Position numbers and translations under genes: made by a program. Source: Microthyrium microscopicum (lineage: Eukaryota; Ascomycota; Dothideomycetes; Microthyriales; Microthyriaceae). From it: a stretch of 64,000 nt of DNA. Under the pieces are notes generated by a model. That model was not told the DNA's origin. It did not search any database and saw only the letters and a program-made list of their open reading frames with translations. Where the stretch lies: the NCBI GenBank assembly GCA_010405405.1, contig MU004238.1:944374-1008373 (forward strand), in the 5' to 3' direction. Below, piece by piece: positions 2,761 to 64,000 of this stretch (position 1 is the stretch's first letter; each line of letters begins with the position of its first letter).

Positions 2761-3387
2761 TTGAGGGAATCTAACGGCCTTTAAAGTATGTACTTTTAGG
2801 TAATTATCGTAGGTAAGCTATAGAGACTAATTTAATATAGTTGTACTAGAAAATAAGGTATTATTAGTCCTAAAAGAGCTAGTAGCTAACAAATTAAGAG
2901 AATCTAGGCCTTTATTAATACTAATTTAGTCTAAATTAGAATTAGGATTAGGATTAGGGAATAGGGCCCCTAAATTAAGGTTTAAGTAATTAAGGGTAGT
3001 AAGGAGGGCTAGCGGCTCTTCTGGAGCCTCTTGAGGGATCTAAACGAACTACAAATTAGTAATGTATTCCATAGTGAATTAGTAATTAGTGAAGGGGCCA
3101 AAATAAGAGAATAAGTGTGTTTTAATTGATTAAGATAAGATAGAATAGTTGGTTGTTAAAGCCAAAATAGACGCTCTAAGGGAGCTATTTATCTGTAAGA
3201 GAACACTATAGGATTTAGAGCTAAAATAGGCAAAACGCCGCTAATTTATTAATGCCATTATGATCTATACCCAAAACAGGTTATATTACTTTAAAATAGG
3301 TTATTATAACACCAATAAACGCCTCTATAGAGCTCCTGATCAACCTGTCTAAAGATCAACATTGTGGATCCTATGGCTTCCACATAC

Positions 3388-3414
3388 TGGATTCAGCAGG
3401 GGTAGGACCAAGTA
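3388..3414 (-). repeat. Right terminal inverted repeat of Tc1-like element
   Basis: This is the reverse complement of 1691-1717 with two mismatches. The terminal TA at 3413-3414 is the expected target-site dinucleotide. Confidence 0.9.
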
Positions 3415-3933
3415 TGCTGGGACGTTGTTGCTATTAACATAGTAGCGTACTAGTAGTGCTCAAGAGTAAAAATGTAAGACCAACTGGCAACCACAAAGTA
3501 CAAAGGATCGGCATGGAGAAACTCAAAATGTAATGTCGTTAAACCTTGCTCTTTGGAGTTGGCCGGGGGGTTCCGCAGTTGATCAACTCGGGGCTCAACG
3601 GAAGGGCGCGTATAACAGGCACCTACTAGTAGTATGCTATCCTACTTCTATATACCTACTCTACCACGTACTTCTCTACAGTATCCTATCTTTCATATCA
3701 TAGCGACCACTGGCCTCATGGAGTCACAGTCCATTATATAAACCATCTGCTTTGTCAATTGTATCCAATCTATCACTTCTGATCAACATCTACCTTGTGT
3801 TAACACGGTCTATGTAGGTACGTACAAATGCTTCTATTCCAAGGTCTGCATATTGCTCGAGCCACAATTTACGGTAAAGTACAGGTATACAGAAACACAG
3901 TTCTATTCTTCACTCACTACAAACCCTTCGCCG

Positions 3934-6387
3934 TCAAGTAGTTGCACCAGCCGTTGTTTGCAAGGGCTCTCCCTCACTCTCCGTCGACTCCCCAATCGTC
4001 ACTTGGACACCTTTATCCATTGAATAGACGCGTAGTCCCATGACGCAAACCGCGTTCCAAGGCGATTCAATCACCTCTTCGTCAGCGTCTTTGGAGTCAT
4101 CTGCCTTGCCAGAACCGTCTGCTCCAACTCCTTGTCGTCGAGATGATCTAGCTGAATTTGCAGATGGCCCACTTTGGACGACAGATAGGCTACTTCCAAG
4201 TCGTCGGGCAGCTGGGACTCGTTGAGGTGCTTCGGGTTTGCGTTGTGATCCCTTTTCAACCTGCTCCCAGTCTTCACTCTTGCCGTCGGATTTGTTGTCC
4301 TCGTCAGATTTGTCGTCCTTGGAACTTTGCTCATCAATTGGCTCATCGACCTTTTCCTTCTCATCAGGATCTTCTTTGGATGAATCTTGATTAGTAGAAT
4401 CCGTCTGGCTCTCGTCCTGAGCATTTTCATCGCTATTGTCGACATGCTTGTCGGAGGTATTGGACTCCTCGGCCTCGGATTTATGGACTAAGCTGTCGTT
4501 GTTCTCATCCGTTTCTTTGTTTTCCTTGGACTCCTCGGACTTTTCAGATTGTGTGGCTGAAAGCTCTTTTGGCTCCTCTTCCTTCTCGGCATCTTCCTGG
4601 TCCTTTGTTTGAACGTCGAGAGTCTCCGACTCGGGAACATTCCCTTTCATCACAGCCATATCGTGGTTCATACCAATCTGTCGGAGCTTTTGAGGCTTGC
4701 TCTCCGCGAATTTCTTGACCTGATCCTCAACCATTTGACGAGTGTCATAGCGCTGAGCAATAACCTGGGGGATTACTTCATAGGTTCCTGGCTCAAGATC
4801 TACTTCAGCCGAGATTGAGCGATCCCGCCAAAGTCCACGAGCTCGAACGATGTAATCGGATTCCTTTGTTCCTTGCTTGCGAAGCAGAAAATTCAATGTG
4901 AATTTGTACTGACCCTCTAGGCCCCGGAAATATCGCTCGTCCAGTTTGGATAGGACAATCACGAAATGCCCTTCCTTTGTAACTTCAATCATGAACTTTT
5001 TCTTGAGATATCCGCTGACCCATGAAACATTGACGCTTGTCCATTTGGTCACTACCTGCCATTCTTCATTGAACAGCCTAGTGCGATCAAGATAGTCGAA
5101 TTCTCGGAGCATATCCTCATATGGCATCCAGAAAATACCGTTGTTTCCAAATCGATAGTCGAGCTTTTGTAACCAGTAGGGATTCCATTCGGGGGAGCCA
5201 TCGGAGAAGGGGCCATCCCACTCGCCTCCGCCCATGATGTCTTTGTGTCCCCAAGGATTTCGAATCTGAACTAGACGAATTGATTTGCCGTCCTCGTCTT
5301 TCTCTTCGACAGCGCGCAGGATTGAATAGGCGTGACACAGTCTCAATCCGTGCTTCCAAGGCTCGCTTTCGGCACCACTTGATCGCGATGAAAGCGCAAA
5401 CAGAAAGTTTTTATCCTTATTGACCATGTCCTGCCAGAGCTCGTCGGGGTCCAGAATATTGTCGCATCTGATAGCAGTAGTAACACCGCCACTCATATCC
5501 TCAACAGCTTCGCCCATCCAGCCACCCTCCAGAGAATCATAATCGCCGTGGATCTTCGCAAACGCCTTTTCAAGAAGTGGCAACCAGGTCTCATTCTGAT
5601 CTTCGCAGCTGGCAAAGAACAAAGCATCAGATCCAGTGTGATACCGCGCCCTATACTTCCGCGCTTCTTCTCCTCTAGGATCGTAGTTGCCGCTCCAGTC
5701 CTTGTAGCGGACATAGAGCATATCATCAACAACAGTGGAAACCCACTCGCCGTCGCGATAGAACACAAATCCATATACACCACACGCCTCATTCCTCGCA
5801 ACACACACCTTCTCCATCACCCCAGGTACACTACACAGCGTGCCAACAGCAGCAAGCCACCAACAATCACCCGCCTTTCCCTGGCGAATATCGACCTCGC
5901 TGAACCCATTGGCCGCAAACTGCGGCTTCTTGTAAATATATCCCACTCTTTTCGCGCCTCCTGGCCTGCTCGAGCTACTACTCTTGCACCCAGTGACACC
6001 CTCGCCTGGTGGTGAAGCACCACTACTCCCATCCTCTTCATCATGCGCCAGTCCTTCTAAACAATACTTTTCGCCGTAGCGTAAATCCCACTCAATGTCG
6101 AATTCGCTGTCTGTGAACTTTTCGTTCGTCCGCTTACATTCTCGGACTACACGTGCTACGCGTTCGCGACACTCTTGCGCGGCGGCTTCGTAGGAATCCG
6201 CGGCATTGCAGTAGGTCGCGGCACCGTCGGCGTGCAGGTTGGCTGGAAGGAGGTTTTGGTAGAGACTGGGTGGGAAGATTTGGGTTGCGCGGGATGGGGT
6301 GGGCGAGAGGAATTTGGACCAGAAATTTGTGATTGCTTTTTGAGGAGCGTCGCGGACCTTCTTCTTGGGTTTGGCGGGAGTGGTCAT
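3934..6387 (-). CDS. Calpain-like cysteine protease (family C2)
   Basis: An 817-residue protein in one uninterrupted frame. The calpain core covers roughly residues 145-440 and has an intact catalytic triad: Cys175 in GKAGDCWWLAAV, His352 in LCHAYSILRAV and Asn377 in VQIRNPWG. A beta-rich domain follows (about 455-570), as in calpains with a C2-like domain III. The C-terminal third (about 610-770) is a highly acidic, Ser/Asp/Glu/Lys-rich low-complexity tail, probably disordered. No EF-hand region is seen, which is usual for fungal calpains. Family members are intracellular regulated proteases; the fungal PalB/Rim13 branch acts in pH signalling, but nothing here specifically ties this protein to that branch. 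Substrates cannot be told from sequence. Confidence 0.93.
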   Translation of the reverse strand: MTTPAKPKKKVRDAPQKAITNFWSKFLSPTPSRATQIFPPSLYQNLLPANLHADGAATYCNAADSYEAAAQECRERVARVVRECKRTNEKFTDSEFDIEWDLRYGEKYCLEGLAHDEEDGSSGASPPGEGVTGCKSSSSSRPGGAKRVGYIYKKPQFAANGFSEVDIRQGKAGDCWWLAAVGTLCSVPGVMEKVCVARNEACGVYGFVFYRDGEWVSTVVDDMLYVRYKDWSGNYDPRGEEARKYRARYHTGSDALFFASCEDQNETWLPLLEKAFAKIHGDYDSLEGGWMGEAVEDMSGGVTTAIRCDNILDPDELWQDMVNKDKNFLFALSSRSSGAESEPWKHGLRLCHAYSILRAVEEKDEDGKSIRLVQIRNPWGHKDIMGGGEWDGPFSDGSPEWNPYWLQKLDYRFGNNGIFWMPYEDMLREFDYLDRTRLFNEEWQVVTKWTSVNVSWVSGYLKKKFMIEVTKEGHFVIVLSKLDERYFRGLEGQYKFTLNFLLRKQGTKESDYIVRARGLWRDRSISAEVDLEPGTYEVIPQVIAQRYDTRQMVEDQVKKFAESKPQKLRQIGMNHDMAVMKGNVPESETLDVQTKDQEDAEKEEEPKELSATQSEKSEESKENKETDENNDSLVHKSEAEESNTSDKHVDNSDENAQDESQTDSTNQDSSKEDPDEKEKVDEPIDEQSSKDDKSDEDNKSDGKSEDWEQVEKGSQRKPEAPQRVPAARRLGSSLSVVQSGPSANSARSSRRQGVGADGSGKADDSKDADEEVIESPWNAVCVMGLRVYSMDKGVQVTIGESTESEGEPLQTTAGATT

Positions 6388-17650: not shown

Positions 17651-18049
17651 TTCAGGGATCCCGACGCGTTATGGCTGAAGCTATCTTTTGTGTGGAGACG
17701 CTATATAAAAGCTGGCTTTGGCAATGGCGTTATCGGTCAGCATCAAATTAGATGCCGATTTAGAGGGCCTCTAGAGGAAGGGATACAGATCCTTCAGGAT
17801 TACATTATGACCTTAGATTTGGTATTAAAAATGTGTCAATTTCTATTAAAAAGGGTGTTAAACGAAGCTTAAAGATACCTAACTTTATTTGCTAAAATAC
17901 GTGTAATCATTGGATTTTGTAGACTTGAGAATTGTGTCCTTTCTCACTATAGGAACTGTACTTTTAGTTAACGTTTTTAAATGCAGTATAAATACCACCG
18001 ATGAGCTTCCTCTTCTTCTGTTTTAGTCCCTAAGTCTTAATTTTGAGTA

Positions 18050-19700
18050 TTTTAGGGGGTAGAAGAGAGGAATCAGGGTCGAATTTAAGGTTAAGAACTA
18101 AGATAAGACTCATGGTGCAATTAATCACATCTTCTTTACCCTCTTTGAAGTTAAGATAGTACTTCTTGATAATCCGTAAAAAATGGATTCTGTCTACAAA
18201 CTCTATAGGATCTCTACGTAAATGCTAAATAATGGCTACGACGTACGGGCAAAAGAATAACTCGTCCTGCTAGCGTAAATAGCTATAAAAACGAGTATAA
18301 AGATCTATACGATAATTCTTTAAGTCGTTCTAATCTTCTCTACGCATTTTAATAACAGCTAAAGCTTTAGAGACGTCGCCGTTGTTATTATTCTAGAAAT
18401 TGACCATACACGATAGGAATTACTTCTTATTCAACTTAAGATGTTCTTAAAATAGGTTTTGTGCGCGTAATGTAAAAGCCTAATATAAAATCGCATAACG
18501 GGTTAATAAACGCTTGAGAGAGAAAGCGACGGCGCGGGTTCGATCTGTACGCTTTTATATAACGTAGTTCTAAACGGCGTTGAGCATAAAAAAAGGGTAA
18601 TTCTCTCTCGTAAGAAGTACGGTGGTATTGGCGAATTCGACGTAATTTAAAGTTATCGCGCTATATCGTAGACTCTTGAAATCTTTGAGTACTTATTGTT
18701 TAGGAGGATAGGATTTGATTATTAACTAGAATTTACGCCCGTAGATTTAATAATCTTGTTGTAGGAAGTAGTTAAACTAATTTTAGAAAACACAGCTTGC
18801 GTACGCTAAAAGGCGTTTACTTTTAGCTGTTCTAATTACTTTGGTAAGATTCTTGGACAGGTAGTACGTGCACTACTTGGAATTAGTATTTTTGAATATC
18901 TTAGGGATGGCATTTTGAAGGCCTTTGTCGCGATCTAAAAGAATTATAGAACGAGGTGCTAAAAATGGGGTAAATTAAATAAAGTAAAAAGATGTGAAGG
19001 TGTAGGAAGTGCTGTAGAATTGTAATATTATAATGTTTGACGCGTTTAATAGGGTATGCTAAAGCCGCTAAGGGTTGGAATATTTGATATTCTGGCTAAT
19101 AGGTTAATGGGAAGATCCTTGGGTAAATAGAAATATTTCTTACTTCCTTCTTTACTAATCTCGATCTTTGGTATTGCTTTATTTAAGTACCTACAGAACT
19201 ACTTCTAAGACTTGTTTGATTTACTTTTAAACACTACCTACGTATAAATTAATAATTCCTTATTACTATTGATACCTATGGCTATTGCAAAACGTAAGTT
19301 ATAGTCTTCTTTATAATAGTACGCGTCTAAATAGATAATTTTAGGTACATATTTCTATAAAGTTTGACTAACGCGCGAGTAAATAAATACGCGTTTGTAC
19401 TACCCTTTTTTCGCTAAATTGACCTTCATAAACACGTTGGGATTAACCTTCTTTAAGCGTTAAATATAAGAAGGAAACTGAAGGTAAGAATTTAAGAAGT
19501 CGTTAGTCGACCTCTTAAATAGCTTTTTTTTAGTTTTGTAGATTTATTAAGCGCTTAGTTTATACCCTATCGCGCGTTGAAGCATATCTTGTACGTTAGC
19601 GACTGGCGTTTGAAGCGAGATAGTACTTTCTGCTTTAGTGAGTATAGTGGTGATGGTTTTTACCTACGAGTTAATTAATCGCGGTAGTAAAAGAAGCCCT
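18050..19700 (-). pseudogene. Degenerate MULE transposase
   Basis: Reading the minus strand through stops, about 19350-19120 gives FAIAIGINSNKELLIYT, then SNKS-K-F--YLNKAIP, matching the MULE DDE segment in which a host-like domain ends with ES-x-W-x-F-x-x-L. About 18960-18840 gives LDRDKGLQNAIPKIF and C-x-YYLSKNLTK, matching the S/D-DRxxGLxxAI ... H-x-C-x-x-H-L block. Trp codons of the family have become TAG/TAA stops, as G-to-A RIP predicts. Limits are approximate. Confidence 0.8.
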
Positions 19701-20230
19701 CTATAGGTGTGAATATTATTAAAATTGAGTATACTGATCCGCTAAGTTATAGTGCTATTACTGTTTACCTGTGAGATAGATTTAGCACGCTAAAAGTACT
19801 CTTTAGGGCGTCTTTTTGCTTAATCGTAGCGTATTTTATGCCTCTTCTTGTTAGTATTAATCGTACCTAATTAGAAGCGCTTCAAAATAGTAAACTTCTT
19901 CGTAACGATACGCATTTTATCCTTCGATCTAAATACCTAATTTAACACCAAGTATATTAACATTTTGGCTATCTTAGGGTAGTATTTTTAAAGAATTCGA
20001 GGCAAAATTGATACTTTGGTGAACTAATAAGACTAATAGGAATCTTAATATCTTATTTACATTGCCTTTGGCTCTCCAAAACCGATCTAGCGGTGTGATT
20101 ACCTACAAAACTACAGAATCTGTAAGTCTTCTTCATCTTTACTTCACTAACGCGTTTTAAACGCGCTTCGGATACCAGATCTTGCGTTCGCGAAGCGTAA
20201 GTATAGATCTATCGGTATGCCGACTTGGAA

Positions 20231-47508: not shown

Positions 47509-49635
47509 CTACGAACCATTGGCGAAGCCAACATCCCAGCTCGGTAGTGTCATGGCTGGCATGCTTCCAGAATGAGGTACCTCTTCAATCATCCCTTGAA
47601 GAATCTCTTCTCGAGTCACCGCCCCAAAATATAAGTTTTTGAGAGCTTTCCTTGATTGGAAGAGCTCTTGAGCTACACCCTTGACTTGCCCTAAAACAGT
47701 CTTTGCAATTGGCATTACACCAGCCAAGGTTTTGAGGCTTCCAATGTTCAGTCTGATGTGCTCTTTTATAAGATTGTCGCCTTCCTCAGTGGCTATAAAA
47801 GACCAGTAGGAGAGATAGCAGACTGCAGCCATGGTGATTGCGCAAGTGAAGAAGGGTGAGTGTTTGGCTAATGGACAAGGCATCTTGATAAGAACGCATA
47901 TGTCCATTGCTGCACGCATGGCTTTTGCTGTATGCATATCGGTATAGTTGCTGGCTATGCCCATTGGGCCGGTGTTGACGCACGTCTTTACCTCCCTGAC
48001 GTCTTCGTGGCTGAGATCTGAGCGAGGCCGGTGAAGAAGTATGGAGCACCTATGATGACATTAGATACGCCACTTAGCCGTGAAATTGACAATACGTACG
48101 CTGCAATGATCATGTGGGCTTCGAAAAGAACTTCGTCAACCATAGCTTCCCTGTTGATGATTTTCTTTTTACAATCAGGAAGATGCAGTGCCCAGTTGGC
48201 TAAATGAGTATCTGCCATATCCAGAGCGTTTTGATCAATCGGATTTGCGCGAGTGGCTGTTAAAACCTGCTGGACAACGCGAATGGCATCAATTCGGTAT
48301 GTTCCCGAAGAGAACACAATCTCGTCAGTTTCGAAAACAGATTCTTCATAATCATCAAAAGTCTTGGCTTCCGAAAGAATACACTTTGAGCATTAGTTTC
48401 AGGCAAGAGGTTCGAGGCTGAGGTACTTACACCTTGAAAATACTCGTTGTCTTCGATTGGGAGTGGAACATCCGTGGATACTTCTTTCAATCGCAGGTTG
48501 TATACGGGATTTACACCGGCAAACATGCCATCACAGACATACACTTCCCACCAAGTTCGACGCAAGCATTCCTCAAGAAGTGTTCCAACTCCGCCGTTTG
48601 TTGTGCCAAAGTGGCGACGATTCATGCCGATGTTAAGTGCCACATCTATTGCAGCATACATGACATTGGCAGATTCCGGTTCATGGTCAGCCATGTGTAA
48701 ACCAATAGCAAGTAGCAACATGGACTGAACATAGAAAGCGTCCTTGGAAACATTTACTCGGGAGAGGGAATGTTGTAGAGCATATCGGAGCTCCTCGCTG
48801 TTAGCTCCAACTACATAGAAGGAACCAATGAACTGGAGTGCCAACTCAAGATGACCCTTGTCTTGGCTTCGAAGTAGATCAAGTAACTGAGATCTAGGAA
48901 GTACGAATGGATGTGCGGCGTAGAAGAAAGTATAAAAAGCGTTGACAAGACCATGGGAGGTAGTATCCATGAGTAACTGAGCTGGCGGTGGGGGCTGAAG
49001 CACGATTTGGCCATGCGACTGTGTAGGTCCGATAAAGTCAAGAGAGAATCTACCATCCGGACTCATAGCCAGAGTCTCTGTCGTAACATTGGAAGTGTCG
49101 AGTACTGACGTGTCAATTTGGGGTGACAAACTTAAGAGTGGTGTATGGGTAGGAGCGCCTGGAGTTGTAATCAGCTCTGGTCGCCGATCACAGTTAAAGC
49201 TAGCGGACTACATGTAGCGCCTGACCCACCATATTGGCGGTTCAAGTGCTTGACTTCTTGTGGATTATTGGAATCAAACTTACTGCTCATAGAGATCGAT
49301 GGCATAAATCCAGCATTGCCGGATTTGATGCGCGGACCCTTCCAGCCGCGCCGAGACTTGATATAAGAACAATCGATAGCCTCAGAGCTGCATCGACTAC
49401 AAGGTCTTTGGCCGTCGCATTTCAAGTGTCTACTACGGCAACCTGTACAAGCGACAGAGACAGCAGAGCGACTACCAGGTCCGGAATCCAAAGTCTGTCG
49501 CTCTGCGTGATGCTTACCAGCACTGCTGATGGCATCGCTGCGCGGGGAAGGAGTCAAATCCGCACTCCAAATGCCCGGAGACGTGAATTGATCCGTGACT
49601 TCGGCGCCCATGGTTGAATGCGAATTCATTAACAA
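47509..49635 (-). CDS. Zn2Cys6 transcription factor adjacent to the GAG-type cluster
   Basis: Exons 49635-49212, 49158-48431, 48383-48100 and 48049-47509 give 658 residues. The binuclear zinc cluster has Cys63-x2-Cys66-x6-Cys73-x5-Cys79-x2-Cys82-x6-Cys89 (ACTGCRSRHLKCDGQRPC). A fungal-specific regulatory domain follows (about 190-450), with the EECLRRTWWEVYVCDG motif typical of this superfamily. It then continues through DMADTHLANWALHLPDCK to the C-terminus. A second ATG at 49611 (MGAEV) is an alternative start. It lies tail-to-head behind uge3 (1.7 kb between them). Position suggests a possible role in controlling the neighbouring exopolysaccharide or melanin genes, but sequence alone does not show it. 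Confidence 0.92.
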
Positions 49636-51357: not shown

Positions 51358-52653
51358 CTATACGAGGCCCGGTTTCGCTGTCTTGTTTGTCGTAAAATTC
51401 CAAACATCGACCGTGCATTCGTCAAGTGTCTTTTCAGTCTTCCATTCTAGTTCTGTTGCAGCTCGGTCAGTGCCTGCAATGCAGAAACCAACATCTCCAG
51501 GTCTCCGTCCCGTCTCGACGACTGGAATTTTCTTTGATGAAGCCTTTTCCAGACTGGCTACAACTTCTTTTACAGTGTAACCTCTGCCAGATCCGAGATT
51601 GAAGGCTCTGAATGGCTCCTTGATTCGACCTTTGGCAGCGGCAGCCAACGCGGCGATATGGCCTCTAGCCAAGTCTGTGACATGGATGTAATCGCGTACA
51701 GCAGTCCCATCTGGAGTGTCATAATCCGTTCCAAATACTTCGAGCTGATCTTTGGAGCCGGTCAGAACTCGAACTACAACTGGAACCAGGTTGGTGGGCT
51801 TTTGTCTTGGATCTTCCCCAAGAAGGCCTGAGCTATGACAGCCAACTGGGTTGAAGTACCGAAGAGCTGTGATATTCCAGGTAGGATCTGATTTTGCCAC
51901 ATCAAAAAGAATTGCTTCGCACATCCACTTCGTTCTTCCGTATGGCGATGTAAGACCAAAGACTCCTGGCTCTTGAGTAACCTGATTGCCTTCCGAGTTG
52001 GTGTAGGTGGTTGGTTCATGCACACACATTTCTTCTCTCAAGGCGACACCTTCATTGGCCTTGGTACCATAAATTGTTGCTGATGAGGAAAAGACGAAGT
52101 TCTGAATCCCATTCTCTTGGAGAAGTTGAAGGAAGTTAACCATTCCACAAACATTATTGAGATAATACGGAATTGGCTGGCTTATTGATTCTTCCACAGA
52201 CTTGTACGCAGCGAAATGGATAACGCCTTTGATCTTGCAGGTCTGGTTTCCATCGATAGAGAGATGCGCAGGAGTCATATAGCTCGAAATTATCGATCGC
52301 ATTACTGGAGACTTATAGTCGGCCTCGTGGAACTTGAGCGTTCGCCGCGGTTTTTGGTTTTGTTGCCAATATTCGGAAGCCAGGAACTCTACTCGATCGA
52401 TGACTTCGCGATACGAGTTGCTCAGATTGTCAACAACCACTACATTGTATCCTTCTTTCAAAAGTTCAAGGGTCGTATGGCTTCCAATGAACCCTAATCC
52501 TCCGACCACCAGGATGTAGCTTTCGTCTTGGCTGATGCTCAGTGGTGCAACTCCATTGTCATCGAAGAGTGTGGATGATCTTGTCGCCGGTGTATCCATC
52601 GTCCCTTGACCCCCAACCATTTCTGAAGTACTGCTAGCTCGCGATTCCGACAT
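51358..52653 (-). CDS. uge3: UDP-glucose 4-epimerase of the GAG-type cluster
   Basis: A 431-residue intronless protein of the extended short-chain dehydrogenase fold. The NAD-binding motif GGLGFIGSH spans residues 51-59. The Ser-Ser-Ala active-site segment is FSSSATIYG, and the catalytic Tyr238-x3-Lys242 lies in SPYGRTK. C-terminal RRPGDVGFCIAGTDRA is the substrate loop of GalE enzymes. About 40 residues precede the domain. It interconverts UDP-Glc and UDP-Gal; the A. fumigatus Uge3 also makes UDP-GalNAc, which supplies galactosaminogalactan synthesis. Identification as Uge3 rather than the housekeeping Gal10 epimerase rests on its neighbours: sph3, ega3 and agd3 follow in the A. fumigatus order. 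Confidence 0.9.
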   Translation of the reverse strand: MSESRASSTSEMVGGQGTMDTPATRSSTLFDDNGVAPLSISQDESYILVVGGLGFIGSHTTLELLKEGYNVVVVDNLSNSYREVIDRVEFLASEYWQQNQKPRRTLKFHEADYKSPVMRSIISSYMTPAHLSIDGNQTCKIKGVIHFAAYKSVEESISQPIPYYLNNVCGMVNFLQLLQENGIQNFVFSSSATIYGTKANEGVALREEMCVHEPTTYTNSEGNQVTQEPGVFGLTSPYGRTKWMCEAILFDVAKSDPTWNITALRYFNPVGCHSSGLLGEDPRQKPTNLVPVVVRVLTGSKDQLEVFGTDYDTPDGTAVRDYIHVTDLARGHIAALAAAAKGRIKEPFRAFNLGSGRGYTVKEVVASLEKASSKKIPVVETGRRPGDVGFCIAGTDRAATELEWKTEKTLDECTVDVWNFTTNKTAKPGLV

Positions 52654-53343
52654 CGAGGCGATTGTGAGAGAACCCTCTGGAACGTCGACCGAATTTGTAC
52701 AGAGAGAGTTTCTCTAAAATGTATGAATAGGGTTAAACGACAACAAATAATTGGATTGGATTGCGCACTGGTATCTCTATCGACATGCGACAGTTTCGAA
52801 ACAGCTTTATAATGGCCAAGTACAGACAGCGGAGAACTAAGCTCCCGCTGTTATATATGAAACCTCCCTCCCCATGATTGATGTGCCCCGGAGCATAGAT
52901 GAGCAATTGGCCGTGCTTCGATACCCCATCATGTCATAGAGACACGGTTCTAGCAACAAACACTAGTCATTTGCCTGGCATTCAGGTTTTTGGTTGCATT
53001 CTCGACTCTGCCAACGACTTTGCCCCCGGCCTGGGCCATACCCATGCGAAATACGCTGGGACCCCCAGCCATTGTAGACACCTCGATAATTAGATGATTT
53101 GGATCTACTTTGCACGAGGCGCCTCCATCTGCGGCAATCATGCTCGCAAAGTTGTATTAGATTGCCAGAAGGTCGCGGCCGATCTGTTGGTCGACTAGCC
53201 ACTCTTTCAGCTTTCCATCCAAGGAAAATTTTCGATCACTGACTTTTGATTATCTGATCTCGTCTTGCCGTTTCTTTTTGTTTCTCAGATGCAACCAACT
53301 TACGACCTTCCTTTCAATAAACTTTAGCCCACGGCCTAGCGCC
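52654..53343. promoter_or_regulatory. Shared divergent promoter uge3/sph3
   Basis: 690 bp between the divergent start codons; the two cluster genes could be co-regulated from here. No exact match to the StuA consensus was noticed within it. Confidence 0.55.
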
Positions 53344-54465
53344 ATGGGAAATGCCCCACACCAAAGACCTCACCACCAGGAGAGAGGCCTTCAATGGAGA
53401 CTCTCATGTGTCGTCTTCGCGATACTCAGCGCGCTGCTCTCTGCAGTTCCAGTTGTTGCTAATGTTGCCAAAACCTCGCGAGAGTCAGTTGCTCCGAGGT
53501 CTGGTATGTTAATACCACTATACATGTACCCTGTCCCCGGGGCATGGGACCCCCTATACACAGCGTGAGCACTGCCTTGACTGATATATTTTCCCTTCAT
53601 TTGCGTCCCGTCTCTAACCGCATACTCACAGGATTCAAACGCATCCATCTGTTGATTTCATTGTGGTGATCAATCCCGCCAGTGGGCCTGGAGCAGGAGC
53701 TCTTCCGGATTCAAACTTTGCTCGGGAGATTATGCGAATGAATTCATATCCCAACGTTCGAACGATAGGATATGTCGCCGCCAACTATGGAAGAAAGGCT
53801 GCGGCTGAGGCATTTGCTGAAATTGGGAAATACACGGGCTGGAGTCAGTCGAATCCGCAACTTGCTATGCAGGGCATATTTCTAGACGAATCGCCGCAGC
53901 TTGCCGATTCGCCAAACAGGACGTTTCTAGAGCAAATCAGAACCAATGTGAAGAGCAACAAGGCCCTCTCTGGTGGCCTACTCGGTAAGCTAGTCAAACT
54001 CTCTTTTCCTCGAACCCATCACAGCGATCATGCACAATCTTGTACACTTGCCGTTGTTGCCTTGTTGAATAATTTCTTCCAAAGCTTCATCAGCACATAC
54101 ACCTTCCTGATATTCTCGTTCTTTGATAAAGCGACGCTAATGCGAGACGATTCACAGTGATGAACCCAGGTATGATACCGGATAATCAAATTCTGCAAAC
54201 AGCAGATCGGACAGTAGTTTTCGAAGAACGATATCAAACCTACGTCAACTTGCAGGCTGCAAAGCAGCTTGCCGCCCTGCCAGATAGGAACGCGCTCGTA
54301 TGCTTAATGCACTCGATTCCAGCAGACATGGACAAAGTTCAAATTAAGGCTATCGTTAACGAGTTGCGCGAATTAGCTGGGAGCATATTTCTCACCGATC
54401 TCTCAGACTTGTACTATCAACAGTTCAGCCCCAGGTTCCAGGATTTTGTTGATGCCATGGTCTGA
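53344..54465 (+). CDS. sph3: Spherulin-4 family glycoside hydrolase (GH135)
   Basis: Exons 53344-53564, 53632-53984 and 54158-54465 give 293 residues. A short basic N-terminus is followed by a hydrophobic segment (about 20-42, CVVFAILSALLSAVPVVANVA), acting as signal peptide or anchor. The domain begins GMLIPLYMYPVPGAWDPLY and contains FIVVINPASGPG, VRTIGYVAANYG and the acidic pair in GIFLDESP, with a further Glu in VVFEERYQ. These match the Spherulin-4/GH135 fold. In A. fumigatus, Sph3 cleaves galactosaminogalactan and is needed for its production. It is divergent from uge3. The second intron is 173 nt, longer than its neighbours. Confidence 0.93.
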
Positions 54466-56952
54466 ACTACCAAGATTGAGAACAGGCAGCTTTGAGAAGA
54501 AAAGCTCCGACAGGAGATTTGAATGATCTTGGGATGCAATCGCAAGATCGAACTATCTCATTCCATAGCTCTCACATTTGCCTGGAACCCGGCTCATATA
54601 TCCAAGTTTGCATTTTTACGATTATCTTTAGACTCTTGTAAGATCACTGGCCGGATCACGATCAAGGATTCATACATTTAGAAAGAAAGCGGCATTTCAG
54701 ATCTACATATATTGTTTTGATATTCCAACTGCAGACGGATGCATATGTATATAGTAATCAGTCATCCTTCTGTGTTGAAATCAGTCTTCTCAGATAAAAA
54801 TAACCTCTGTGAAAGCATCAAGAGCCAGTGACAAAGTCAAATCCACTCCCTAGGAGCAACCTCATCAGCTGGGCTTTCTTATCATTCACATAACCAACGA
54901 CCAAGAAATTGCGGGACAATTCCAGAACAAAGGTCAAGGTTCCAAATATCCTCGTGAACGATTATGTTTATTCCTGGCTTCGAATCGAAATGAGCCAAAG
55001 AAAATCTTCTTCGAAATTTACATCAACATGAAAGGTTACCCTTCTGCCTTGTTAATGAAATAACGATTTTCTACCAGGAAAGAAGTCTATTAATAACACC
55101 AGATCTTGGACTTAAACTGATGTAGTATATAACCAGACTCATATGATAATCACCTGTGCAAAAGGCCAATCAGTTTGTGGGCCGTGAGGATACATACAAG
55201 GGCACTGTCAGTTTGCATTTGACCCATTGCACATGAAACTTAGTCAAATTTGTTATACTAGATCATAAAGCCTCGAGCCTCTTATTCATGCAACAATTGC
55301 TTAGGTCTTCTGATCATGTGGAAACTTCGTCGGCAGAAGATATTACCTGCAAGACTGACAGTTTTTAAACACGACCGCTCATGCGAGGTTACAGTCATAA
55401 AGCTGATCTGATTGAAGTAGAACTTATCTTATAGATCAAAACTCTAACTAGTGTAATCATCTCAAGCTGACATGGTATCGCTTGATCAGTGGATTGTTAC
55501 TAGTCGCTTGTCTATCGTCAACGGAAGATCGGTTTGTGAAGAGTAACTCTTACTCAAACCAGAGGCTCTTGAGCGCCCTATGGCAAAGTCTTGCTCATTC
55601 GAGTATAAAGCCTGATGAGTTCTTATTAGTCGCTCGATACACGCGGGACACTTCATATGAGCTACCCGGGACATGAACTCTATGTGAATTTGCAGCCTCA
55701 AGATCTGTTGATTGATTTGACTGAGAAGTACGTTGTGCATCGGCCATTGAGCCTCCCATGTTTCGCCGACGCTTCTAGAATGTAGACACCTTCTCTGTTG
55801 ATACCCTTTCCGTCACTCTCATGCGTTGCATCGGGCCTTTCCCTAGACAACCATGTGCCATATAGCTATGTGCTGGGATTCCCCACGTTGTGCATATAGT
55901 GCGACTTAACCAGGATCCATGTCAAAATCTCTGCATCATGCAAGATCTAGAGTCACAAGAGCGCGTTGATCTACCAATAAATTGACGCAACGGGAGATTC
56001 ATGTCCCACTCAGAAAATGGACAGGAGATATCAGGGATTGTTTGGAAACCGAGAGCTGTCATCCTGATGGATCTTGCAGAGAAAGTGATAAAAACGTGCG
56101 ATTTTTTAGCTTTCAACTTCACCTGCTGATGAGGCGCAAGGACGATCCAGCTCCCGGTATCAATCTCACGAGGCTCTTGCTAGTTGACTAGTCGAATCGT
56201 TTTGATTACTTGCATTAGCTTACAGTAGTCCAAGACAGTTACGGGAACGCAGAGGTCGACATCTCGTCCATTCGGGCACTATGGCATCAGATCTGGCATA
56301 TTATTTTGTGCATGAACAAGCCCGAATGTGACGAAGAGGACTTTTCGGTGAAAATAACAATATGTCTGGTCACATTCTCTGCCTAGTCATGCAAAACCCT
56401 GATCAATTTGCTTACGCTGGAGGGCAGAAAGTTCAAAGCGGATATTTATTTACCAAGCGTCGCTCTTTCACTGTGGCCGAGAGCATCGAACTTAACTTCT
56501 TAGGTATTGATACTAGTCCGTCGGGCAAATTGATGTTAGTCTTGGAGGCTCCGCTTGGGTGGAGCTCTTCTTGACCAAGTCAACTGAACCTCTATGCCTT
56601 CTTTTTTGACTTGTCCCGTGAAATGAGCCGACCTGCAATAAGGCTCCACCAAACAGTTCGTGGGTCGGAGAAGAACACTAGTAAAGCAGGCCGGGAAAGT
56701 CGTTAAAGATGAAGTTGATAGCTGGCAGACACAAATGAGATGGACCAAACGAATTAATGAGTGATTGGTTTTGTATGCAAAACGCCATGCCAATGCTGTA
56801 AACGAATGCTGTCTAAGTAATATCCTATTCATGACTCCATGCTCCTGCCAGTGTTGTAGATAGTATCCTGATTCTTTGAGTAACCGGATACCGCGATCTC
56901 GTAATGGCCCTAGCAGATCAGCCTCTATTACATAAGACTTCAGGATTGTCAA
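54466..56952. other. 2.5-kb spacer between sph3 and ega3
   Basis: The spacer lies between two cluster genes on opposite strands that converge here. Frames up to 138 codons (56536-56952 minus, 55482-55676 plus) have no recognisable motif. The region is AT-rich but not TpA-dominated like the transposon relics. I see no gene. Confidence 0.5.
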
Positions 56953-58044
56953 TTATGTCGGGGTTGTTGATGTTGCGCCACTAGCAATGTTAGTTTGATG
57001 CTACAAACGTTTCTGAAACTTTAACTAACTTGCACTGCTCAATCCAGCCGTCCAAGTTGAAGTTCTTTATGACTGTACTGAATTCGTAGGATCCATTGGC
57101 AGGTCCATCGTTCTTGCAGAAATTCGAGGCAAAGTTTGACTTAACCTCTGAAGGGTACTCGATGTGGAAAACAGGTTTGCCGCTTTTGATGAAAGGGCTG
57201 TACTTGTCGCACTCCGAGAATTGGACGCACTGTTCCTGGACGCTAAACTGTACCGCTGGCAGTACACTGGGGATGATGGCAGCGGCGTTCTTGAGGCCGA
57301 GACCCATGCGCAACGACTGCGTCTGGTTACTCATCCATCCTATGAAATTAATAGAATCGGTTTGTGTCATTCCAATGCCGTTGTCATTATCCTACAAGAG
57401 ATGATTAGCAAGTACTCCAGCTAGTCCTTCCAAAATCAGGTACTCACATAAGCATCCATGTTATCTGGATCGATGGCATCGCACCCCTTTTGCGCTGCCA
57501 AATTGATTCGGCTAGTCATGATACTCCTCACGTTATCGCTATTCAGATTGAGCCATTTCTCACCAGGCCAACCTTTCAGCCCTTTGCCTTGATCGCTCGC
57601 CTTGAATTGATTCGAATCTGGTCTGTCTGGCTCATAGCTGCCAGCACTAAAGTAGCATATAACTTTCTTGCCCAAGTTGTGTAGAGTATCAATTGTCGAT
57701 TTTGGTGTCAAGAACAGATCAATGTCGAATATGCCAACATCCGGAACGACACTGGAAGCGCCATCAGGAACGTTGATCGACTTCAACAAGACAATCTGCC
57801 AGGTTGAATTGACTGGAGGCTGGTATACTGAGCCATTTGTAGGTGCTGTTGGTAGAGGCGATGCTGGTGTTGTTGATGATTCCGAATTGTCTCCACCACT
57901 TCCATTGTTCAAGCCTAGACCCAGTCCGAGTCCAAGGCCCAGTGCGACGATGAAGATGCCGACAGCGATGGCAATAACAAGAAGTTTTCCTCGCCGACTC
58001 CTGCGTCCCCACCAACTGCCTGATTTCATCTTTTGCTCGTCCAT
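56953..58044 (-). CDS. ega3: Endo-alpha-1,4-polygalactosaminidase (GH114), membrane-anchored
   Basis: Exons 58044-57448, 57391-57030 and 56980-56953 give 328 residues. After about 20 basic cytoplasmic residues comes a membrane helix (LLVIAIAVGIFIVALGLGLG), then a Ser/Thr/Pro linker and the GH114 barrel: DIDLFLTP, KKVICYFSAGSYEP, WLNLNSD, CDAIDPDNMDAY and PVFHIEYP. The conserved Asp residues and the Glu of HIEY are in place. In A. fumigatus, Ega3 hydrolyses deacetylated galactosamine stretches of GAG. The short last exon (NGATSTTPT) depends on a GTTAGT/TAG intron; without splicing the protein ends at 56990 with a slightly different tail. Gly-Leu repeats in the helix are unusual. Confidence 0.92.
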
Positions 58045-59708
58045 TGTATCCTCGCACCTATAACCAACAATAGTCTCTACCGGTTTGTATTGAATCTGCT
58101 GTGTGAATGGGCGCGAATCAGCTCAGATAGCCGCTCAACGGGTTCCAATGTGGATGCGAGGCGGAGGGAAGCTAAACGCTTACTGCGAATAGGCTTTGCC
58201 TGTGAATGGTGCGGGAAATGGAGAAAGAGGGCTCGAAGACTTGGGAGCGGTTGTTCGCTATCTAACCATAGCGAATGGTATAGATTTGAACGAAATGTAA
58301 CGAGCGACAATCGAGCTTTGGCGATGCTCGCGGAGGTGCGAAGGAAAGCGTATCTGCTAGATTAAAGAGGAGGGCTGGTACTGGTTGGCTGTTAATGCTC
58401 GGTGCGACCTTCTACTATGTATGCCTACTAGTCGCAGAAAAGCAGAATCATGGTCCCAGCTGGACAATGGAAAGAGTCCACGGATGGATGCATGGAAGAC
58501 AAATCACAAAGTGGTGTTGGTTTAGACTCTCTAGTGAGCTGAAAGAGACTCCACTTTTCACGCGTTCTAGAAGGCGTTTTGGAAGGTTTCCTCGTTGTGG
58601 CTTGATTCTAGCGGCAAATCAATGCAAGGGCCTAATTCTGTTGATCTGCATTGTTTGCTTATTTGGGCACGACAGGCTTGACACTCCAAGTTCACCGAGT
58701 ACCGTAACTACCTGTCATCGTCCAAACCGCCGCCCATGTTTGACGTTCTCACGTCTAGTCCTTCTCAGTCAGTTGAGCAGAAACCAAGATAAGCGATAGG
58801 TACCCTAGGCTGTGGCGAAGAGTGAAGACTCGCTACCCTATGCGTCAGCCCTCAAGGGCTTCAATATCACCATATATTTTATATGTTATGTTTGAAGAGA
58901 CTTTTCCGCACTCAGCTAAGCAAGCTCAGTACATGTTGCGATATGTTCGTCTTTGGTAACTTAGTCCCTATGTGCAGAGAAGCTATCCTTGTTTTGCTTA
59001 CTACGTTGGCTTTCGTATCCACGGCAGCTGGTCATGAATTGTCTACAATTTCCTTTTCGAAATTGCTAACTACGATGATGCCAGTAATCAATCGAATTTC
59101 GACAAAAAAAGGACCTGGTCGAAAAAGTTCGTCAGCTAATCGGGGTCGCCTTCTTTGATTAGTTTGAACGCTATAATTTTCAGGACGTACTGCCGTTGAT
59201 TATTTCTTTTTCGAACCGGACGCAAAGCAGATCTCTGGAAACACCAGAAAGGCTAGAGGTTCACGAAAATCGATTGTGTAAATCGTGTAGTTGCGTTATC
59301 TTCAATTGGATGATTTTATGATTGGGAATGTCCTTGACAAAATGGGAGCACCTGAAGATTGTGACTATATTTTCTAACTGTTTTGATGTCTTGTAGACAT
59401 ATGATGAGAGCCACCCAGAACCGTCATGGTCACGCGTCACAACGCTACCTGGTACGGTAGATATAATACATCGTGTCAATATCTCTTAATGATGCGCAAC
59501 ATGGACATTATACACAAGCTGCGTGCTTGAAATGCACCTTCCCAAACGCCTCCTAGCTGCAATATGCATATATATCAACAATAAGGTAGACAAGCTACTA
59601 CGCTATGAGTAGTGTCCAGTACAATAAACGTGCAAGCTTCTTTTTCATGTCCAACCATGGAGGATCGCTTGATATAAGAGACTTGCAAATGCAAAAAGCG
59701 AAGGGCCA
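58045..59708. other. 1.66-kb region upstream of ega3 with StuA-type motifs
   Basis: No supported gene; the frame 58395-58799 has no motif. Two sequences fit the fungal StuA-type consensus WCGCGWNM: ACGCGTTC at 58560-58567 and ACGCGTCA at 59432-59439 (the latter also fits on the other strand). StuA is a known regulator of GAG in A. fumigatus. Chance occurrence is possible. Confidence 0.4.
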
Positions 59709-62127
59709 TTATAGCCGTATGGGCTCGCGGAATGGAACAGTCACTGGTTGGCCTTCCATCTTGACCCAAAAGGTCAAAGGGTCGTTTCCAACCTTTTCAC
59801 GCTTCGCGTTGGCTGGTGTGGCGGCTTCTACTGGAAGAGTGACTGGTATGGGTACTTTGCACTTGTTTTGCGTGGCGGTAGTGACAGTGATGGAGATGAC
59901 TGAGTTTCCATCGTCCGAGTAGTTCCATAAAATACCCGGACTGCATTGATCGCGAGACATGCGGTCCATGAATGCCTGCGCGGTATCGTCATGTTTCAGA
60001 GTGATGATGGGCCAATCCGTGCTGATAAAAATATTAGCATGCTGCAAACATTGGCTATGGTATTACAGGGCCTGGAACTTACAGGCGAACCATCTCCTGG
60101 GTGACAATTTCGGTCCATGTTTGCATAAGACCGAGTTGAAGCTCCACTCCGTTCACCATAGTGGTTGGGACATCAGCCACTCGCAAGTTGGCTTGATGGA
60201 ACATGTACCTAAACAGATTAGCTGCTTGCTTGCGATCAGAAATAAAATCGACCTACGGGTCCCAATGAAGACCTAGCAAATACTTCGTATTGGTATTTCT
60301 TGCGTCGTCCAACAAGTGCTGGTAGTCACCAGAGCCACCAGAAGTAGTTGTCCACTCATTCAAGGTACAATCGGGAAGGTCACAATTATAGTATATCGTG
60401 GTAGCCCATCGTGGCATGATGACCAATCCTGGGTAACCGTTGACAGCATTCGTAGAGATTGCTGGCCAATACTCATTCTGCTGATTCCGTAGAATAGGAC
60501 GGGTGTTATCGCCAACAACGTGTTTGATACCATTATCCATCCACGCTTTGATAGTATCTGCGTTATGTAGTCCAGTGATAGCTGGTGGAATAAGGCCGGC
60601 AGTGGAATAGCGTTTGGCAGCGGAGATGCCTGATTGCTGAAGCCACGCGCGGTTGAAAGAGATTTCTTTCGATGCATCGGCGTAAGTGGCATTGTTGAGG
60701 GCCTCATGAGTGCTTGTACGGTTAGCTATATCCTCGTTATGGACATGCATATGGAGGACTATACTTACAATGTGTGAGAGACGTGCATGAATGCGTCCCG
60801 CTTAGTTGGGTTCTTGAACCATTGCATCAATGGATCAAGATTAGCGCAAGTTGTTGACCAGCGATAAACCTGTGGAGCGGCAGGCCAGATATCAACTCCT
60901 GATCCCGGCAGTTTGACGTACTCGAGAACAGTATCGACCTGATCTGGATATTCTATCGCTTCAATTGGGTTGCAAACGCCTTGCTGATTTAAAGCAACAG
61001 CAGCCTCGATATCACCATTGCCGTTGTGACCGATCTCGACCATATAGTTGGAGCCTTTGGGCAATCTGCGGTTGATGTCTTTCATCCAGGTAATATGGTG
61101 CTCTAAATCTGATGGTCGAAGGCGGAAAGTTGAACCTTGAGGTTGATACAAATCGGTGACCAAGAACATATCATCAATCTGAGTGTTGAGATAAACTCTC
61201 CGGAAACCAGCATCTATTGTGATGTTAGAGGTGAGCAAGTTGCTCATATGGATTTAAACTTACATAGTCCCCTAGTCATCCAATGAATCCATGGATGCTG
61301 TAGGAAGTTGGAAGTTGCGGCCCAATCGGTACCCCAGCCAACAAAGAATGCCATTTGTTCTCGGCCATCCTGGCTGTTAATGACAGCTATGATAGAGTTA
61401 GCCGACTATAGAAACGGGATGAAGAGTTCTAGTCATACCAGCCGTTGTTCTCTCAGTGAATGGACCACCGGGTTCAAATGCACCAATCTCCCATGTCCAA
61501 GAGGAATTAGTTATTCTGGCGGGATAGTGATAGAGACCCTGCGTGCTGCTACCAGCATAGGTTTTGACGTTTGCGGTTTGAAAACCAGTGTTGTTTGTGA
61601 TGCTGATGAGCTGCTCCACACCCGCGTCGCAACAACCAGTTTTATCAATGGCAGTTGTTGTACCTGGAAGTGAGATATAAGTAAGGAGCATACTTGAAGG
61701 AAAAAATATATCTACCGAATTTTGGACCAGGGTAAACGTCTAAACGTATCATCCGAACCTTGAACTTTTTTTGATATGTGTATAATTGTTCCCATTGAGG
61801 ATCTGTGAGAGCACTTCGGAAGCTTCCACCACCATAATCGTACGAGACATCTCCCAAAATAACGACACCACCAAAATTTCCTTGTGTTGGCGAAGATTCT
61901 AATGTGGGTAATGTTGCTCCCGAGAGAGGAACGACTAAAACTCTGTATGGAATTCCGTAGCCTTGAAGACCGGAGTGCGCTGTCCTAGCCGAGTCTATAT
62001 CTCGGGCGATGACGAGGACTGTCGCTTTGGCCGAGTTTGCAGCAGAGACGATAGATGTGAATATTCCGAGAATCGCTATCAACAGCAGAAGGCGCAGAGA
62101 GGGGAGCATGCTCCAGGAGGGAGCCAT
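59709..62127 (-). CDS. agd3: Secreted polysaccharide deacetylase (CE18), GAG deacetylase
   Basis: Seven exons close in phase: 62127-61716, 61663-61439, 61386-61264, 61213-60769, 60712-60257, 60208-60083 and 60021-59709. They give 699 residues. The signal peptide (LRLLLLIAILGIFTSIVSAA) starts at the ATG at 62127; an in-frame ATG at 62295 would place extra residues before it. The deacetylase part carries NTQIDDMFLV, with the metal-binding and catalytic Asp residues, and HVSHTFTHEA, with the paired His ligands; the latter is completed only across an intron. A. fumigatus Agd3 partially deacetylates GAG outside the cell, giving the positive charge needed for adhesion. The protein length and domain order agree with Agd3. 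Confidence 0.92.
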
Positions 62128-63725
62128 GCTGGCAGTGTTGTGGTATTCGAAGAGTATGCGATGAAACGAGAGACAGAATAAGTCAAGACTGAAGGAAAGA
62201 AGAGCGGGAGATTTGGCAAGTCGTAAAGAGTGTTGAAAAAACAATGTATTAGACAAGAGACATTCTACTGGAGGAGAGAAATTTGGCAGTGCCAAAGCTT
62301 CCGCGGGTTATAGCAGGGCAACAGAAGGATATGAGAGAACAGCGCCGGTCTAGTTCAGGCACAATTGAGCAGACAGGATTAGAGCATAACATGCGAGATG
62401 GGATTCTGGAAGCACAGAGGAACAGCGTGCCAGTGAAGGATCCTGTTAGTCAGGACCATGAAAATACATTGCAAATAAAGCTAAGTTTGTCGTGACCATC
62501 ACAACGGGAATTAATGGTCAACCTGGTGACGAGTTTGCATGGATAGATCGTACAAGGGAATGTGAAGCAATAAAGGGCAAAGTAATATGGAGCGAAGCAA
62601 CGACAGCCATAAAGAAACACTTGTGGCCGAGGTCTCAAGCAGAGTGCTGTAGTAATTAAAAGATGCTGGGATAGGAGACCAGGCCTTGTAGTAAAGACAA
62701 GTTAAGAAGATGAATATCAAAAACCCCTGAGGACCGTGTGTGTGTCCGTGTCCATTGGATGTGTGTCAAATCTTGAATCTTGAAGGCTAGCCCCCAGAGG
62801 GTCCCCAGGTTTCATACTTTCGTCCACGTTGTGGCGTTGTTTCTGCTACCTATACCGCTCTAGTAGTAGTAACCGCTATTTCGTACCTTAGTACTCTTAT
62901 AACGTCTATACGGCTGACAGGGCAAACCTTTCGGACTTCGGTCGTCTAATTCTCCCCACAACTTCTTCTTTCACCAACCTTGCCATGGCTTTATAAAGCA
63001 GTGATCAGTCTATTCTACCTGACTTCTATAGACGCTTGTTTCCGTCTTGCTTTCGGGTTCTATCCCGTATCGGCGCATGGAAATGACATAAAAATAGGTG
63101 GTTCCAAATCAAATTGCTCCGCAATCTCCATTGTGCCTGCGGGTAGATGCTGTTTCGTTTATATGGTCATCTACATCTGGACACGCCTCAGCCGCCCAGA
63201 TGAAAGCGGCAAATTCAGTTTTACCCCGACGCTGTGCGGAACCAATAGCGATTATGCACCAGCTTGGTAATAGAGAAGCTTCCACGGTACATGGACTCTA
63301 AGTAATGAAAATGTTTAGCTGCGAAACCCTACGCAGTGATGTCTATGCCAGTGCCCAGTATTGTTGTGCCTGTTTGAGTTTGGGTACGGTTGTCTTGCTA
63401 TCTGTACCGCGTGTGGCTATCGGCATCCCCCCAAATTGCTAGACTTGGGAATTTCTGTAGCTACTGCTCAAGCGATCTTCTAGTTGCACGTGTTTTACTC
63501 GTTCATTGTATGGTGCCTCCACTTTTTGCAACCAATTTCTGATATCTACTACCATCATTTGTTCCCAAAACACCACCGTTATCTACGGCTACCATAACCT
63601 CGCCATGACGAATTGAAACTTGCAAAACAATCTCTCAGCCAGTTTGGTTTTCTTTCCAGTCATCTCTTAATTTTTAATTTGACGCTTCTCGTCGATCGAG
63701 TCCATGACTGGAAGACTCGTCCTCG
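62128..63725. promoter_or_regulatory. Divergent regulatory region between agd3 and the right-edge gene
   Basis: 1.6 kb between divergent start codons. A GT-rich stretch occurs at 62737-62770, TATAAA at about 62993 and CACGTG at about 63486. No coding signal was recognised. Confidence 0.5.
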
Positions 63726-64000
63726 ATGGCATATGTTTTGGAGATACATCCCTTCCAAGGCGGTAGGAAGGTGCAAAACTGGTGGCAATATGCTTTAGTA
63801 GCCGTCATTGGAGCAAGTGGACTGGCTGGACTCATATCTGTCGGTTGGTTTCTTATAACGCTTTTCAAATCGTTACTGCGGGTATGTAGAAAGCTCCGTA
63901 GAATGTTCTCGCAGGAGACTGACGTTTTGATAGAGGAAAACAGATTCCAAGGATATACCGAAAAGAGTCCAGCAACGTCTTGATCAACATTTCGAACACA
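63726..64000 (+). CDS. N-terminus of a membrane protein; candidate GAG synthase Gtb3 (runs off right edge)
   Basis: Exon 1 (63726-63881) encodes MAYVLEIHPFQGGRKVQNWW and a membrane helix (YALVAVIGASGLAGLISVGW). An intron at 63882-63933 has donor GTATGT, a CTGAC branch-like site and a TAG acceptor. Exon 2 then stays open to the window end (RKTDSKDIPKRVQQRLDQHF). Unspliced, the frame ends at 63983. No catalytic domain is in view. In A. fumigatus the large glycosyltransferase gene gtb3 sits next to agd3 at this end of the cluster, so position makes Gtb3 the best guess. Confidence 0.5.

Follow-up and report, generated by a model that had tools for sequence, protein, structure and literature searches.

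The right-hand part of a 64,000-nucleotide stretch of the Microthyrium microscopicum genome (the window; C9:944374-1008373 of an assembly of 36.9 Mb in 20 contigs) very probably carries, together with the DNA that follows it, a complete galactosaminogalactan (GAG) cluster orthologous to that of Aspergillus fumigatus. The predicted cluster runs from 51358 to 72681 in window-extended coordinates (21.3 kb), with its right part past the window edge, and all five GAG gene families are present at the locus:

51358..52653, minus strand: uge3, UDP-glucose/N-acetylglucosamine 4-epimerase of 431 aa, single exon without intron (Pfam Epimerase, PDB GalE family)
53344..54465, plus strand: sph3, glycoside hydrolase family 135 (GH135, Spherulin-4) hydrolase of 293 aa, exons 53344-53564, 53632-53984 and 54158-54465
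56953..58044, minus strand: ega3, glycoside hydrolase family 114 (GH114) endo-alpha-1,4-galactosaminidase of 328 aa, exons 58044-57448, 57391-57030 and 56980-56953
59709..62127, minus strand: agd3, carbohydrate esterase family 18 (CE18) polysaccharide deacetylase of 699 aa, 7 exons, signal-like N-terminus
63726..64000, plus strand: gtb3, GAG synthase, 5' end in the window; exon 1 63726-63881, intron 63882-63933, exon 2 63934-72681 (window-extended)

All cluster gene models are in frame with one stop each and have GT..AG introns of 48-173 bases. Splice sites were picked by hand; the short final exon of ega3 depends on the site chosen, and an alternative start of sph3 exon 3 at 54170 would give a protein of 289 aa. 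The place of agd3 in the A. fumigatus order is the one that we presume from its own locus identifier. Compared with the A. fumigatus locus identifiers, the gene models give the order uge3-sph3-ega3-agd3-gtb3, as described for AFUA_3G07910 (uge3), 07900 (sph3), 07890 (ega3), agd3 and 07860 (gtb3) (PMC4817252; publications are cited here from the portions of their text that were available). An earlier note on this DNA had proposed consecutive Uge3-, Sph3-, Ega3- and Agd3-type genes in A. fumigatus order, and the checked models, with their family and PDB matches, bear this out. Counted exon by exon, with loci grouped by hand from exon matches so that the counts are lower bounds, the genome holds at least 12 GH114, 4 GH135, 5 Agd3-like and 2 Gtb3-like loci. 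With one locus of each of these families lying within 21.3 kb, chance clustering is not an issue.

Family matches to the four enzymes are strong. The Pfam scan took in Uge3 (Epimerase, E 2.9e-40), Sph3 (Spherulin4, E 5.9e-73, 245.8 bits) and Ega3 (Glyco_hydro_114, E 2.7e-81, 272.6 bits), the latter two having hydrophobic N-terminal stretches, and Agd3 was identified by its PDB match. By sequence, the closest solved chains are GalE epimerases for Uge3 (best 301 bits), 5d6t and 5c5g for Sph3 (217 and 216 bits), 6ojb and 6oj1 for Ega3 (289 and 288 bits) and 6nwz (Carbohydrate deacetylase Agd3) for Agd3, with 794 bits over residues 32-698 of 699. These alignments keep GIF-DE and VVFE in Sph3, DPDN and EQC in Ega3, and QIDDM, SHTFTHE and FHQANLR in Agd3, motifs that we take to be catalytic; in the alignments of these three proteins the active-site motifs reported in the earlier note read as intact. 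Against the solved A. fumigatus and A. clavatus enzymes, the window copies of Agd3, Ega3 and Sph3 are the best scorers in the genome. Ega3 reaches 267 summed bits against 206 for the next copy. For Sph3 scores were compared per gene (193 against 167 for the better gene of a second locus on C8, described below), since loci with two GH135 genes sum to 323 and 290, above window Sph3.

The gene that follows agd3 is a synthase of 2967 aa that ends 8.7 kb beyond the window. Several combinations stayed open, and its single intron, of 52 bases, was selected because its donor is GTATGT. The protein has an N-terminal hydrophobic segment, an N-terminal domain, hydrophobic segments between residues 877 and 1374, and a C-terminal glycosyltransferase family 4 (GT4) module at about 2240-2800 (Pfam GT4). 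The membrane-protein gene that had been seen to start where gtb3 was expected is real (exon 1 63726-63881, exon 2 from 63934), and extending the sequence past 64000, as had been proposed, shows a gtb3-type GT4 glycosyltransferase. With residues 1-1200 of exon 2 as query, 188 proteins matched at E <= 0.001 among 7998 candidates scored; the best 120 of the 188 include A. fumigatus P0116, and the named ones belong to genera that are presumably all Ascomycota. The best named relative among the matches listed is from Trichodelitschia bisporula (68% over 2990 columns), and near full-length homologues exist in Ascomycota. Window Gtb3 is 48% identical to P0116 over 2813 aa and 40% to the A. fumigatus paralogue P0277 over 2827.

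These two A. fumigatus proteins mark a deep division. The synthase of the C8 locus, used as query, brought up another large group of proteins (340 at E <= 0.001, of which the best 120 are listed), and in a tree of 50 proteins chosen by hand from both match lists (quick method, LG+G4, midpoint root) the Gtb3-type synthases form two deep clades with a Shimodaira-Hasegawa-like approximate likelihood ratio support (SH-aLRT) of 100. Clade A holds window Gtb3 and P0116, clade B the C8 copy and P0277, and both include Aspergillus, Dothideomycetes and Leotiomycetes; Peltula P0038 and Glutinoglossum P0036 lie near the middle of the tree. With its midpoint root, the tree shows the division itself rather than its direction. 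A sister relationship of the two Microthyrium synthases, a constraint named after the first tree was seen, was rejected on a 26-protein subset (approximately unbiased test, p-AU 4.3e-31). The grouping of the window protein with P0116 supports the galactosaminogalactan type that the earlier note had assigned to the cluster.

Clade A would correspond to the published gtb3, an identification that we reach indirectly. A. niger An02g11410 (P0123) is 86% identical to P0116, and its number is close to that of UgeC An02g11320, the A. niger orthologue of Uge3 (86% to Uge3; PMC5598270), which argues that clade A is Gtb3. The same is argued by the published A. niger gtb3 primers (PMC7075038), for which our own reading gives the peptides HGRDNVK on one strand and DETDGG on the opposite one. 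Proteins of at least 2200 aa were assigned to the clade of whichever of P0116 and P0277 gave the higher BLAST score. HGRDNVK occurs in 13 and DETDGG in 2 of the 101 members of clade A, and neither occurs in any of the 108 of clade B; A. brasiliensis P0056 holds both, about 36 residues apart. This distinction shows which deep synthase lineage would be that of GAG and keeps genome surveys from confusing the two.

Some candidate labels were set aside. The name Gt4b for the clade-B A. fumigatus protein was dropped, 'Gt4b/Gt4c' being entered against one gene (PMC7426166) and a gt4bc deletion serving as a GAG-deficient strain (PMC10143823). Equating that protein with Afu4g14070, beside uge4 Afu4g14090, was a guess from gene numbers and is not shown. 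Nor does the published MrGtb-Gtb3 identity of 28% serve as a clade marker: the Metarhizium anisopliae protein is 40% identical to P0116 and 51-52% to P0277, so that the 28% fits neither clade; it may not be the gene of the cluster.

Two clade-B synthases from Naganishia (Basidiomycota; P0325 and P0341) nest within ascomycetes near Taxawa, Elasticomyces and Cryoendolithus. Placing the 13 ascomycete clade-B sequences in one clade without Naganishia, a group named after the first tree, was rejected (p-AU 2e-51). From its sequences this case reads as a horizontal transfer, separate from the published Trichosporon case. Residues 2836-3053 of P0341, at the C-terminus, match the Spherulin4 (GH135) domain with 231.5 bits; either this protein unites the synthase with a hydrolase, or two genes were joined in its model.

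Over both of its lobes, the catalytic module of Gtb3 shows homology to bacterial PelF. Against a profile of 8 bacterial PelF proteins in local alignment mode, hhalign gave 99.9% (E 6.5e-31, 437 columns, both lobes), and the single-sequence comparison gave 99.4% (E 5.4e-22, 436 columns). In each of the 9 scanned proteins that hold the module, NCBIfam PelF (NF038011) is the best-matching family; since all nine score below its curated cut-off of 100 bits (66.5-96.1 bits), Gtb3 is a PelF relative and no PelF equivalog. In a genome scan with PelF, Gtb3 scored 66.4 bits; the remaining scores are 34.0, 28.4 for an exon of the C8 synthase, and 23.6. PelF is also matched by two further GT4 frames of the genome (98.8%, E 6.8e-17, 194 columns; 97.0%, E 8.1e-11, 168 columns), because GT4 proteins have the C-terminal lobe in common; what sets Gtb3 apart is a long match that takes in both lobes, although the control frames are the longest open frames and missing exons may have shortened their matches. 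In six-frame translations of 72,556 plasmids, the matches of P0168 at E <= 1e-4 are 2 records that both bear the annotation pelF. P0116 has 4 at E <= 1e-3, of which three are labelled pelF and the fourth DUF3492. Pfam DUF3492, which in two bacterial PelF proteins corresponds to the first lobe, is precomputed in 6 of 120 proteins listed. When six proteins were scanned, three of those 6 among them, it passed the cut-off in exactly these three, so that the sample was a favourable one. The three include P0166 and P0168, which form a more distant group (47% to the window module) that may not be Gtb3 proper; window Gtb3 (17.4), P0004 (16.0) and P0116 (11.7) stay below the cut-off of 23.3. PelF is described as polymerising UDP-N-acetylgalactosamine (UDP-GalNAc; PMC13254593), and the tie to it makes the donor, linkage and active site of an uncharacterised fungal synthase testable.

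By sequence, the relationship was seen in this module alone. No PelG-, PelE- or PelD-like part was found by hhalign in the non-glycosyltransferase regions of Gtb3 (best probability 1.3%), and those regions have no sequence link to GH114 or GH135 by profile comparison. A membrane region formed by fusion of PelG or PelE was rejected, membrane regions reaching 0.5% at best and the Pfam model of PelG finding nothing in the Microthyrium genome at E <= 1. The strand-like pattern of the N-terminal domain (about 80-420) suggests a possible TIM-barrel (triosephosphate isomerase fold) hydrolase like PelA, GH114 or GH135. Pfam gave no match at E <= 10 in 9 of 10 members and one chance match (0.2), a PDB profile search gave chance-level matches only (best E 0.13), and hhalign gave 0.5% against GH114 and 0.1% against GH135, with a weak control in that GH114 against GH135 also gave 0.2%.

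The published GAG model should apply to the Microthyrium cluster. Gene content, order, frames, families and the PelF relation come from this analysis, and the pathway steps are those published for Aspergillus, Neurospora and Metarhizium. Uge3 would supply UDP-galactose (UDP-Gal) and UDP-GalNAc in the cytosol, from which Gtb3, a very large polytopic protein with a PelF-like GT4 module, would polymerise an alpha-1,4 chain and probably pass it through its own membrane domain. Secreted Agd3 would then remove part of the N-acetyl groups, leaving a cationic polymer that sticks, and anchored Sph3 and Ega3 would cut acetylated and deacetylated stretches.

A second GAG-like locus, which is unexplored, lies within 42 kb at C8:1981032-2022659 and has an epimerase, two GH135 genes, a synthase and a deacetylase:

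1981032-1982273, minus strand: epimerase, 49-50% identical to the window copy
about 1984.5-1986.8 kb, plus strand: two GH135 genes, 28-31% identical to window Sph3, one short piece 36%
18 kb between the GH135 genes and the synthase: AT-rich block, 26% GC, resembling repeat-induced point mutation (RIP-like), TpA/ApT dinucleotide ratio 1.66
about 2007-2015.1 kb, plus strand: synthase P0241, 2764 aa, clade B, 41% identical to window Gtb3
2020.3-2022.7 kb, plus strand: Agd3-like deacetylase, 39-53% identical to window Agd3 by piece

It shares the epimerase, GH135, synthase and deacetylase families with the window cluster, and differs in having two GH135 genes and no GH114 (none of the 23 GH114 matches of the genome lies on C8), in its order and in being split by the RIP-like block.

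Several points weigh against assigning the window cluster to GAG. The cluster is known here from genes alone; the dual specificity of Uge3 is assumed from comparison with GalE structures; P0116 was equated with Gtb3 on indirect grounds; and export through Gtb3 is our own proposal. In addition, the Agd3 margin is small: against 6nwz the window copy has 473 summed bits and a C2 paralogue 451, and the identity of the paralogue is higher (57.5% against 54.5%, over about 400 residues for C2). Because the paralogue nearly equals the score and exceeds the identity, Agd3 orthology is not decisive by itself. An intact cluster could instead make another galactosamine-type polymer, such as a homopolymer of GalNAc and galactosamine as in bacterial Pel, a partly deacetylated alpha-1,4-GalNAc homopolymer (PMC9135694). 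The PelF-like module of Gtb3 would suit such a product, as would a Uge3 whose specificity differs from the one assumed. We nonetheless consider it unlikely, as window Gtb3 shares a clade with the Aspergillus gtb3 protein, the four partner families are those of GAG, and the same gene set in A. fumigatus gives a polymer that contains galactose.

It seems very improbable that the real GAG cluster is the C8 locus and that the window holds a paralogue. The C8 gene complement gives this idea some footing, but the absence of a GH114 match and the different order speak against it, as do the grouping of its synthase with P0277, the higher scores of the window copies on solved Agd3, Ega3 and Sph3, and the restriction of the A. 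niger primer peptides to clade-A proteins. There is similarly very little to recommend a degraded or silent cluster kept by chance. Knowledge from genes alone would allow it, and AT-rich, RIP-like blocks occur elsewhere in the window; however, the five genes are open and properly spliced, one of them over 2967 codons, and 51358-64000 is without RIP-like composition (TpA/ApT 0.70).

The A. fumigatus cluster (Lee et al. 2016, PMC4817252) has the same five genes in the same order at a single compact locus; Microthyrium differs in belonging to the Dothideomycetes, and the comparison covers gene content and order. The same five families occur in Neurospora crassa, whose 30 kb cluster has a sixth small gene (PMC11356417), and in Metarhizium robertsii, where gene order and orientation differ (PMC8224951). 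Reported GAG clusters come from 28 species, of which every one except a single species belongs to the Pezizomycotina (PMC4817252). The window adds one more complete cluster, from a leaf-dwelling fungus; as a cluster it is ordinary. Of more weight are the second locus, the division of the synthases into two clades and the link to PelF, all of them worth following. In literature searches that left subscription papers mostly outside, we found no paper naming both M. microscopicum and galactosaminogalactan and, in the available text of papers naming both Gtb3 and PelF, no statement of their homology. That GAG and Pel synthesis resemble each other has been published (PMC9030451, PMC9135694).

Bacterial pel loci share more than PelF with the fungal clusters. 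PelADA and Agd3 are alike in structure in both domains (PMC13254593). On Paraburkholderia graminis plasmid pPHS1_P a GH114 gene and galE adjoin pelG (L048:11485-13454), and in a Pseudoalteromonas plasmid locus an annotated endo-alpha-1,4-polygalactosaminidase of GH114 type does so (L050:5881-6705). A GH114-type gene stands beside pelG in two of eight pel-type stretches, and a third has an MJ1477/TM1410-type hydrolase. In contrast to Gtb3, bacterial Pel has separate PelD, PelE and PelG, with no relation to any Gtb3 part by profile comparison. The Cetobacterium PelG (L052:4501-6612) is 703 aa long, against 455-474 in six others, and ends in a tail where Gly, Tyr and Asn repeats are abundant.

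We tentatively suggest, while giving it rather less than an even chance, that fungal GAG and bacterial Pel synthesis are one machinery by descent, with a PelF-type glycosyltransferase fused to a membrane scaffold and an early clade A/B split in Pezizomycotina; Microthyrium and Aspergillus keep both and may make a second galactosamine-type polymer. On this suggestion clade A would be the known GAG cluster and clade B an overlooked second system, with relatives of the deacetylase, GH114 and epimerase also co-occurring in some bacterial pel loci. The whole gene set may possibly go back to a single bacterial locus.

The gene that follows gtb3 encodes Ask1 of the DASH complex. On the other side, uge3 is adjoined by a left neighbour that nothing seen here ties to the cluster:

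48260..49635, minus strand: Zn2Cys6 transcription-factor gene (Pfam Zn_clus 37.6 bits, Fungal_trans 31.1 bits)

A further GH114 gene, 28-36% identical to Ega3, lies 37 kb past the window (C9:1045084-1045925, L013); the interval contains genes for a major facilitator superfamily transporter and an acyltransferase and one that is MCM3-like. The AT-rich, RIP-like blocks of the window, at 2001-4000 (37% GC, TpA/ApT 1.6) and 18001-20000 (34% GC, TpA/ApT 1.5), are probably decayed repeats.

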